A DNA stretch of 64,000 nucleotides from Bombella pluederhausensis. Its GTDB lineage: Bacteria; Pseudomonadota; Alphaproteobacteria; Acetobacterales; Acetobacteraceae. Both the position numbers and the translations under genes were made by a program. The stretch spans positions 186,001 to 250,000 of the forward strand of contig NZ_JANIDY010000001.1 in the NCBI RefSeq assembly GCF_026385525.1. Direction: 5' to 3'. The notes below the pieces were generated by a model. That model was not told where the DNA came from and made no database searches. It was given only the letters and a program-made list of their open reading frames with translations. Positions 38,614-39,609 of the stretch are shown one piece after another (position 1 is the first letter of the stretch; each line of letters begins with the position of its first letter).

Positions 38614-39366
38614 TCAGCCAGCCTGACGCATGGGGACGGATGCGCCTTCAGGGAAGGGCTGTGCCACGGAGTGGCTGTTGGGAATGGACGCCGCTGCCGG
38701 GTCCTGAAGGATATAGCCACGACCCCAGACGGTTGTGATCATATGTTCAGCCCCGAAGCGCTGTAGCTTGCGGCGCAGCTTGCAGATGAACACATCAATG
38801 ATCTTCATCTCCGGCTCATCAATGCCACCATAGAGGTGGTTCAGGAACATGTCCTTGGTCAGCACGGCACCCTTGCGGAGCAGCAGGAGCTCCAGAATGG
38901 AGTATTCTTTGCTGGTCAGGTGCAGGAAGTGACCATTAACGCTGACCATCCGGCTTTCAAGGTCCAGCTCTAGTGGGCCAACCCGCAGGCGTGGCTCGGA
39001 GATGCCATAGGCACGGCGGGTCAGGGCCTGGATGCGGGCCTGTGCTTCGCTCATGTCGAACGGCTTGGTGACATAGTCATCGGCACCGGCGGAGAAGGCA
39101 GCAACTTTCACCTGAGACTCTGTCCGGGCAGAAAGCACCATGACGGGGGTGGAAATCCGGGACCGCCGCAGCTGACGGATGAGCTCCTCACCGGGCAGGT
39201 CAGACAGGTTCAGCTCGGTGATAAAGAGATCATAGTCGTAATGCTTGAACATGTTGAGGGCTTCATCAGCTGTCTTCACATGGTCGACCGCATAAGAGGA
39301 CTTCCCCAGTACTTTTACCAGGTGGCCTACAGTGACACTATCGCTGTCAGCGATGAGGATGCGCAT
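38614..39366 (-). CDS. ctrA: CtrA-family cell-cycle response regulator with Glu in place of the phosphoacceptor Asp
   Basis: This 250-residue OmpR-type regulator is CtrA by its DNA-binding domain: LTSKEYSILELLLLRKGA, then MFLNHLYGGIDEPEMKIIDV, FICKLRRKL and VWGRGYILQDP. CtrA controls cell cycle, motility and replication in alphaproteobacteria. The receiver domain is unusual. The phosphoacceptor site, DLILLDLNLPD in Caulobacter, reads DLFITELNLSD here, so residue 51 is Glu. The acidic pocket IEDD is IADSD, losing Asp8. The switch Ser and the conserved Lys (DDYVTKPF) remain. The C-terminus ends in PMRQAG, without the Ala-Ala signal needed for ClpXP turnover in Caulobacter. The promoter region upstream is 500 bases of AT-rich DNA. 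Confidence 0.93.
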   Translation of the reverse strand: MRILIADSDSVTVGHLVKVLGKSSYAVDHVKTADEALNMFKHYDYDLFITELNLSDLPGEELIRQLRRSRISTPVMVLSARTESQVKVAAFSAGADDYVTKPFDMSEAQARIQALTRRAYGISEPRLRVGPLELDLESRMVSVNGHFLHLTSKEYSILELLLLRKGAVLTKDMFLNHLYGGIDEPEMKIIDVFICKLRRKLQRFGAEHMITTVWGRGYILQDPAAASIPNSHSVAQPFPEGASVPMRQAG

Positions 39367-39609
39367 AATTCCAACTCCCTTGAACTGGTTGTATTATGGG
39401 ATGCTATTTCAAGAAAATGCAACCATTGATTGTTGTCTGATTGTTTTCACAACTAAAGCCTTGGTTATTCCTGCGGTTCGTCTGAGGCATTTTTATGGTG
39501 AGCGGGTGATTTTTTGGTGTCAGACTTTGATTTATATAGAGTTGATAGTGAGATATATTCGTGAATTATCTGGATATTAATCTTCTACTTTTAAGAAATA
39601 ATTTTGTAT

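Follow-up and report, generated by a model that had tools for sequence, protein, structure and literature searches.

CtrA is the textbook case of phosphorelay control, exerted in Caulobacter and other Alphaproteobacteria by the CckA-ChpT-CtrA pathway. Laboratory CtrA D51E alleles sit in an otherwise canonical receiver. Such alleles, which occur in the parts of the sources available to us on Caulobacter (PMC5189948) and Rhodobacter capsulatus (PMC6363796), carry the same residue change as the natural protein described here. A second set of close counterparts is formed by the aspartate-less or atypical regulators ChxR, RitR and HP1043, in which the receiver fold is likewise kept and the acceptor Asp replaced. 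Among aspartate-less receivers, Glu is the commonest replacement (26%), and retention of the first acidic residue with loss of the second is usual (65% and 29% acidic, respectively), according to the part of PMC4395418 that we could consult. Within the Rhodospirillales, the accessible part of Brilli 2010 (PMC2877005) describes a cluster D in which chpT orthologues are missing, ctrA is present and GcrA and CcrM are kept; cckA is said to be present in this cluster, Granulibacter to have no ctrA, and another phosphotransferase is suggested as a possible substitute for ChpT. Similarly, the excerpt of PMC8116508 seen by us gives chpT, cckA and divL in only 27-36% of Rhodospirillales genomes and ctrA, gcrA and ccrM in 72-82%. 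Neither of these two sources mentions the acceptor residue in the portions available. In the portions of two further sources, PMC12733265 mentions Caulobacter CtrA only and PMC9756655 contains nothing on CtrA acceptor loss; CtrA is not named in the main text of PMC13214618. Our literature search, for which most subscription journals lay outside the scope, returned no report of a missing CtrA acceptor in acetic acid bacteria. Absence of ChpT has been known since 2010, and we found no published report of CtrA phosphoacceptor loss.

The window analysed here is a 64,000-nucleotide stretch of the Bombella pluederhausensis genome and carries, on the minus strand (as are all window features below), a ctrA gene with an ATG start (38614..39366). 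Its product, a 250-aa response regulator, combines an aspartate-less receiver with a DNA-binding domain of the OmpR type. Judged by its sequence, this protein is a CtrA orthologue, as indicated by its DNA-binding domain, its alignments and its top NCBIfam family, CtrA (NF045991), for which it scored 288 bits against a curated cut-off of 350 in what is, judging by its name, a Rhodobacterales model. Pfam matches covered the receiver (PF00072, 80 bits) and the DNA-binding domain (PF00486, 72 bits), in the same order as in Caulobacter-type CtrA. The pseudo-receiver, delimited by PF00072 and by the receiver fold of an AlphaFold model, comprises residues 1-118 (39013..39366), and the winged-helix DNA-binding domain residues 127-222 (38701..38988); most of residues 171-201 were invariant or nearly so across 28 rows including Caulobacter and Brevundimonas. 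Unlike Caulobacter-type CtrA, the window protein has no Asp51, no Asp8 and no C-terminal Ala-Ala. Translation and the family alignment place Glu, encoded by GAG (39214..39216), at phosphoacceptor position 51, and Ser at codon 8 (39343..39345), where Asp was found in 36/36 rows from ChpT-containing genomes. By analogy with PhoB and CheY, Asp8 is the second of two Mg-binding acids. Ser79 and Lys101 are retained. Asp8 to Ser is a point not raised by the original prediction, made from the window sequence alone, whose reading of a native Glu at the acceptor site was borne out by the codon (39216-39214) and by the fit of the numbering to strand 3 of the AlphaFold model.

This model, computed from a 28-row alignment, had a mean pLDDT of 84.7 (86-96 in the receiver blocks), and its receiver superposed on the CtrA receiver of 4qpj chain C with an rmsd of 1.2 Å over 118 columns. 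The window CtrA is thereby predicted to keep the receiver fold while the acceptor Asp is replaced. The top fold match, PmrA bound to DNA (4s04, TM 0.82), was given little weight. Strand 3 stops at residue 50, so residue 51 lies at the acceptor place. This contradicts a shift in numbering through a misread start codon, which, together with a sequencing error, we regard as an extremely improbable source of Glu51. In the window's genus group (g1, 11 genomes, of which G032 was left unscored owing to its broken ctrA frame), codon 51 encoded Glu in 7/10 genomes including the window's, with both GAG and GAA in use, and Ala (GCG/GCT) in 3/10. Six of the nine other scorable congeners therefore share Glu51, against the original prediction's own caveat of a base error. 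Its second caveat, an additional CtrA with Asp51, likewise failed: only one of the 12 receiver domains found in the genome belongs to a CtrA. The other eleven were assigned elsewhere, several by context and reading only. Six are regulators (PhoB-like, NtrX-like, ChvI-like, two CzcR-like and one more of OmpR type), three belong to a chemotaxis cluster (CheB and two CheY-like proteins), and two are kinases whose receivers are N-terminal; the names PhoB, NtrX, ChvI and Che rest on context and on reading of the sequences. All five other OmpR-type regulators have the acceptor Asp, and the three of them scored with the CtrA model reached 90-181 bits, versus 288 for the window protein. Base error and a second CtrA copy were rejected on the congener codons and this inventory.

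The comparison with the Caulobacter relay extends to its other components, as no ChpT, hybrid CckA, DivK or CpdR was found in the window's genome. For ChpT, PF10090 had no match in this genome and none over the cut-off in ten genus relatives, one of which (G350) gave a single sub-threshold match in a 507-aa frame. As PF10090 matches were weak (5e-17 to 5e-6) even in those Acetobacteraceae counted as ChpT-containing, a status defined by a match of about 5e-6 or better, we built a family-specific profile from 12 Acetobacteraceae ChpT sequences. It was searched in 80 genomes, covering all 12 candidates in the window's genome and the best 37 candidates in larger genomes. This profile recovered 7/7 held-out ChpT-containing genomes (E <= 5.8e-40) and nothing better than 1.2e-9 in the other 73, the window's included; among the weak matches listed, all were kinase-sized frames (at least 482 aa) except a 39-position piece in G077. 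In G001, G017 and G219, PF10090 gave weak matches above its cut-off (1.4e-4 to 3.7e-4), again in kinase-sized frames; these three genomes were counted as ChpT-less, in agreement with the profile. In the receiver and ATPase inventories of the window's genome, no receiver apart from those of the chemotaxis cluster resembled DivK or CpdR, and no frame had a kinase followed by a receiver, the arrangement of a hybrid CckA; the latter result differs from cluster D, for which the part of Brilli 2010 available to us has cckA present (PMC2877005). The CckA model was not discriminating, since many hybrid kinases matched it and none reached its cut-off in any of 74 genomes, ChpT-containing ones among them. 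GcrA was retained in 38/38 genomes tested. SciP (PF06627) had no match in the same number (0/38), an uninformative search because ChpT-containing genomes gave no match either. Gene content and the residues at positions 8 and 51 together make it well supported that CtrA of this bacterium is uncoupled from a CckA-ChpT phosphorelay, as had been proposed from the window alone.

On contig C11 of the same genome, two kinases with N-terminal receivers lie next to each other (L111:1583-5003). In the one of 500 aa the kinase core resembles that of CckA (NF046020, 202 bits versus a cut-off of 1000) and the receiver is N-terminal; this protein may be a remnant or relative of the cell-cycle kinase. Separately, in 8/9 of the g31 genomes searched, a kinase in a frame of 745-800 aa weakly matched the ChpT profile (1.2e-9 to 2.6e-7; for example G316:C18:19980-20420), and G386 gave a match at 1.5e-5. 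In three of these genomes the Asp51 receiver is intact and ChpT is missing.

We further investigated position 51 across the Acetobacteraceae. All 397 genomes searched had some match to the window protein, paralogues counted, and 139 CtrA sequences were fetched, the best scorers first and then those from acetic-acid-bacteria-like genera, which makes the set non-random. We dropped four whose frames are broken or start late (G032, G281, G062, G247), leaving 135 aligned rows, of which G366 ends after 168 aa, G344 is incomplete in sequence and 12 more are incomplete near the C-terminus. Asp (54 rows) and Glu (57) dominated position 51, followed by Arg (12), Ala (5), His (3), Asn (2), Thr (1) and Ser (1). 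The distribution followed that of ChpT. All 36 rows from ChpT-containing genomes had Asp51 within the full quintet Glu7/Asp8/Asp51/Ser79/Lys101, and 80/98 rows from ChpT-less genomes had no Asp51, 92/98 missing at least one of the quintet (69 of these 98 rows were also covered by the ChpT profile; G353 fell outside the split). A full quintet without ChpT occurred in six rows (G013, G030, G316, G333 and the fragmented G039 and G041). In 75 of the 80 ChpT-less rows without Asp51, the window's among them, the acid pair was broken too. Fisher's test for ChpT versus Asp51 gave 1.7e-19, on rows that are related to one another. Besides the three congeners, Ala51 was found in G066 and G001, and Asp, His, Thr and Asn were found at this site in other acetic-acid-bacteria-type genomes. 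On this alignment, Glu51 is not peculiar to the window bacterium and is the commonest state of one whole clade.

The ctrA frames that were interrupted, late-starting or early-ending are L119 and L023 (G032), L239 (G281), L247 (G062), L269 (G247) and L271 (G366), for which real loss and assembly error are both possible. At 1e-38, no CtrA match was obtained in 12 of 80 genomes (G029, G116, G117, G210, G309, G357, G077, G144, G100, G157, G137 and G223), two of them less than 90% complete. In G137 and G223 ChpT is present with CtrA unmatched, and ChpT may thus persist after CtrA is lost.

A quick CtrA tree from which columns 7, 8, 51, 79 and 101 were left out required one change for ChpT and seven for Asp51 versus not-Asp51, against at least 35 in 200 label shuffles. 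SH-aLRT support was 78.8 for a 65-row, mostly-Glu51 clade and 60.5 for the ChpT-containing clade, with weak deep nodes (20.5 and 39.7). Rows from g18 and g56 have kept Asp51 and have lost ChpT and part of the pocket, which suggests that ChpT loss and pocket erosion can precede the change of Asp51 to Glu. In G009 and G386, by contrast, the acid pair is intact and residue 51 is Glu; the order of loss thus differs between lineages. Among the best 80 named CtrA loci listed, 74 had Asp51 and six had Glu51, the latter from Novacetimonas maltaceti, Acetobacter musti, Acetobacter cibinongensis, Saccharibacter floricola, Gluconacetobacter tumulicola and Komagataeibacter xylinus. From these six named loci we infer that the mostly-Glu51 clade represents the acetic acid bacteria. 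A metagenome-assembled genome labelled Asaia bogorensis (L187) has an Asp51 CtrA that shares only 49% identity with the window protein. This sets it apart from the six acetic acid bacteria named above, and its label or bin is probably wrong. A separate clade of 14 rows has mostly Arg, otherwise His or Ser, at position 51, no acidic pair and Ala or Thr at position 79, the whole pocket being lost (L251, L252, L255-L257, L259-L261 and L263 in g68; L258, L264, L267 and L270 in g96; L253 in g24). No ChpT over the Pfam cut-off was found in this clade.

Loss of the pocket was accompanied by uneven loss of constraint. The ratio of receiver to DNA-binding-domain divergence was 1.33 in the ChpT-containing rows, 1.70 in the mostly-Glu51 clade (64 of its 65 rows here and below, leaving out the truncated G366) and 2.12 in the Arg/His/Ser clade. 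Within the mostly-Glu51 clade, entropy rose most in helix 1 (+1.03 bits; residues 10-22, 39301..39339), helix 3 (+0.88), the beta3 loop (+0.80) and the acid strand (+0.76), by intermediate amounts in beta4 (+0.53) and helix 2 (+0.51), and least in helix 5 (+0.37), helix 4 (+0.32), beta5 (+0.22) and the DNA-binding domain (+0.13). Constraint fell most on helix 1 and the side of the active site, and least on the dimer face and the DNA-binding domain. Phosphotransfer partners dock on helix 1, and OmpR-type regulators dimerise through alpha4-beta5-alpha5. In the window protein this dimer face spans residues 84-119 (39010..39117) and is well conserved, on the AlphaFold model and the alignment. Lys87, Asp96, Asp97, Arg111, Arg117 and Arg118 were retained in 62-64 of 64 rows and Ser79 in 61. 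Residue 98 was Tyr in 62 of the 64; in the ChpT-containing rows it was Tyr in 13 and Phe in 23. Site 8, once an invariant Asp, holds seven different residues in the mostly-Glu51 clade, and site 51 five. Within the window's genus, median dN/dS was 0.076 for the receiver (35/45 pairs usable) and 0.010 for the DNA-binding domain (26/45), many dS values exceeding 1. In the Glu51 genera g54 and g85, mean dN differed more weakly between receiver and DNA-binding domain (0.127 versus 0.097 and 0.063 versus 0.049, respectively), a contrast within the range of ChpT-containing genera.

These rates and conservation patterns indicate purifying selection on the receiver fold, on the alpha4-beta5-alpha5 face and on the DNA-binding domain. 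If CtrA no longer mattered and its receiver were drifting neutrally towards loss, the broken or late-starting frames of G032, G281, G247 and G062, the early end of G366 and the 12/80 genomes unmatched at 1e-38 would be readily accommodated; the low dN/dS of both domains and the near-invariant dimer-face residues would not, and we consider such decay very unlikely. The C-terminal Ala-Ala is a ClpXP signal in Caulobacter. It was present in 16/28 ChpT-containing rows and 4/61 rows of the mostly-Glu51 clade, counting only rows with a visible stop codon (omission of the truncated G366 reduced the latter set from 62 to 61). The rarity of Ala-Ala in this clade hints that regulated proteolysis of CtrA may have been uncoupled as well.

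Taken together, we consider it probable that the window protein is a CtrA orthologue that has become a pseudo-receiver regulator acting as a phosphorylation-independent dimer, with a Glu51 that is shared across relatives and not indispensable. With ChpT missing, the acceptor Asp51 replaced by Glu and Asp8 by Ser, CtrA would bind DNA as a phosphorylation-independent dimer formed through the alpha4-beta5-alpha5 face. Its activity would then follow its abundance, governed by synthesis and removal of the protein rather than by the CckA-ChpT relay. Counting against this reading are the six ChpT-less rows with a full quintet, the weak dN contrast in g54 and g85, the Phe at K+2, the lack of clear TTAA-N7-TTAAC enrichment, and the cckA reported by Brilli 2010 for this kind of organism. 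A precedent comes from R. capsulatus, where the author's model has gafA activated by unphosphorylated CtrA, in the portion of PMC6363796 at our disposal. Glu51 may have favoured the active form at first; that Ala and other residues have replaced it in several lineages argues that it is not indispensable.

The original prediction went further, holding that CtrA may be permanently active through Glu51. Its native Glu51 stands, but a strict lock, in which Glu51 mimics aspartyl phosphate and is needed for function, appears rather unlikely. It would account for Glu as the commonest state of the clade (49/64 rows, and 17/19 genera by one arbitrary row each) and for the Ser79 kept and the Tyr98 present there almost throughout, and the Caulobacter ctrA(D51E)delta3omega allele is described as stable and active in the part of PMC5189948 available. 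The three of ten scored congeners with Ala51, G066 and G001 with the same residue, and the His, Thr, Asn and Asp found elsewhere are difficult to reconcile with a required mimic, as is the loss of Asp8. Moreover, in the accessible text of PMC4395418, DNA binding by ChxR, which has a Glu receiver, survives a Glu-to-Asp or Glu-to-Ala change alone, and Asp-to-Glu alone is often insufficient. The K+2 residue of the window CtrA is Phe, in CheY said to favour the inactive form, and this also counts against a bias to the active form. Unlike the laboratory D51E alleles, the lineage studied here has lost Asp8 too and in places has Ala instead of Glu. Constitutive phosphomimicry by Glu51 is accordingly unproven and probably not the whole story. 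A broader scenario, which we hold only tentatively, is that the acetic acid bacteria dropped the phosphorelay and made CtrA a one-component, constitutive dimer, for which Glu51 would have been a phosphomimetic stepping stone since passed by several lineages.

Alternatively, CtrA might be phosphorylated by another route, with acetyl phosphate or a different kinase as donor, or with a different residue or Glu51 itself as acceptor. The retained receiver-kinase with a CckA-like core on contig C11 (NF046020, 202 bits versus 1000) and the three g31 genomes with an intact Asp51 receiver and no ChpT are compatible with this, and Glu is phosphorylatable in principle according to the section of PMC4395418 consulted. 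Nevertheless, the acid pair is broken alongside Asp51 in nearly all ChpT-less rows concerned (75/80) and constraint has been lost on helix 1, and we judge this route most unlikely. The same data bear on the question, raised in 2010, of whether another phosphotransferase replaces ChpT: a substitute is unlikely where the CtrA acceptor is gone, and 80/98 ChpT-less CtrA would need none.

Compared with ChxR, RitR and HP1043, the change described here has taken place in a master regulator of wide use; its orthologues elsewhere are targets of a phosphorelay that has here been lost as well. The interest of the case lies in the span of the change across a clade and in its intermediate states. The Acetobacteraceae offer a natural series, with the intact switch (ChpT and Asp51) at one end, pockets that are eroded but retain Asp51 in the middle, and position 51 occupied by Glu, Ala or Arg at the other end. 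Such a series makes it possible to study how a master regulator persists once its input is gone.

Upstream of ctrA, within an otherwise poorly conserved intergenic stretch, a block at 39415..39459 is kept in ten genomes of the genus and is a possible promoter or operator. GANTC was absent within 320 bp upstream of ctrA in 9/10 genomes of the genus. No TTAA-N7-TTAA site occurred in the window, where 0.09 were expected, too few to tell. TTAA-N7-TTAAC occurred three times in the genome versus once for the control, an enrichment that is not clear; one site, at C7:193010, lies approximately 30 bp upstream of a WYL-type regulator (read from its sequence) and not of flagellar genes. The window contains 130 GANTC sites counted on one strand, and the expectation of 264 seems to count both strands.
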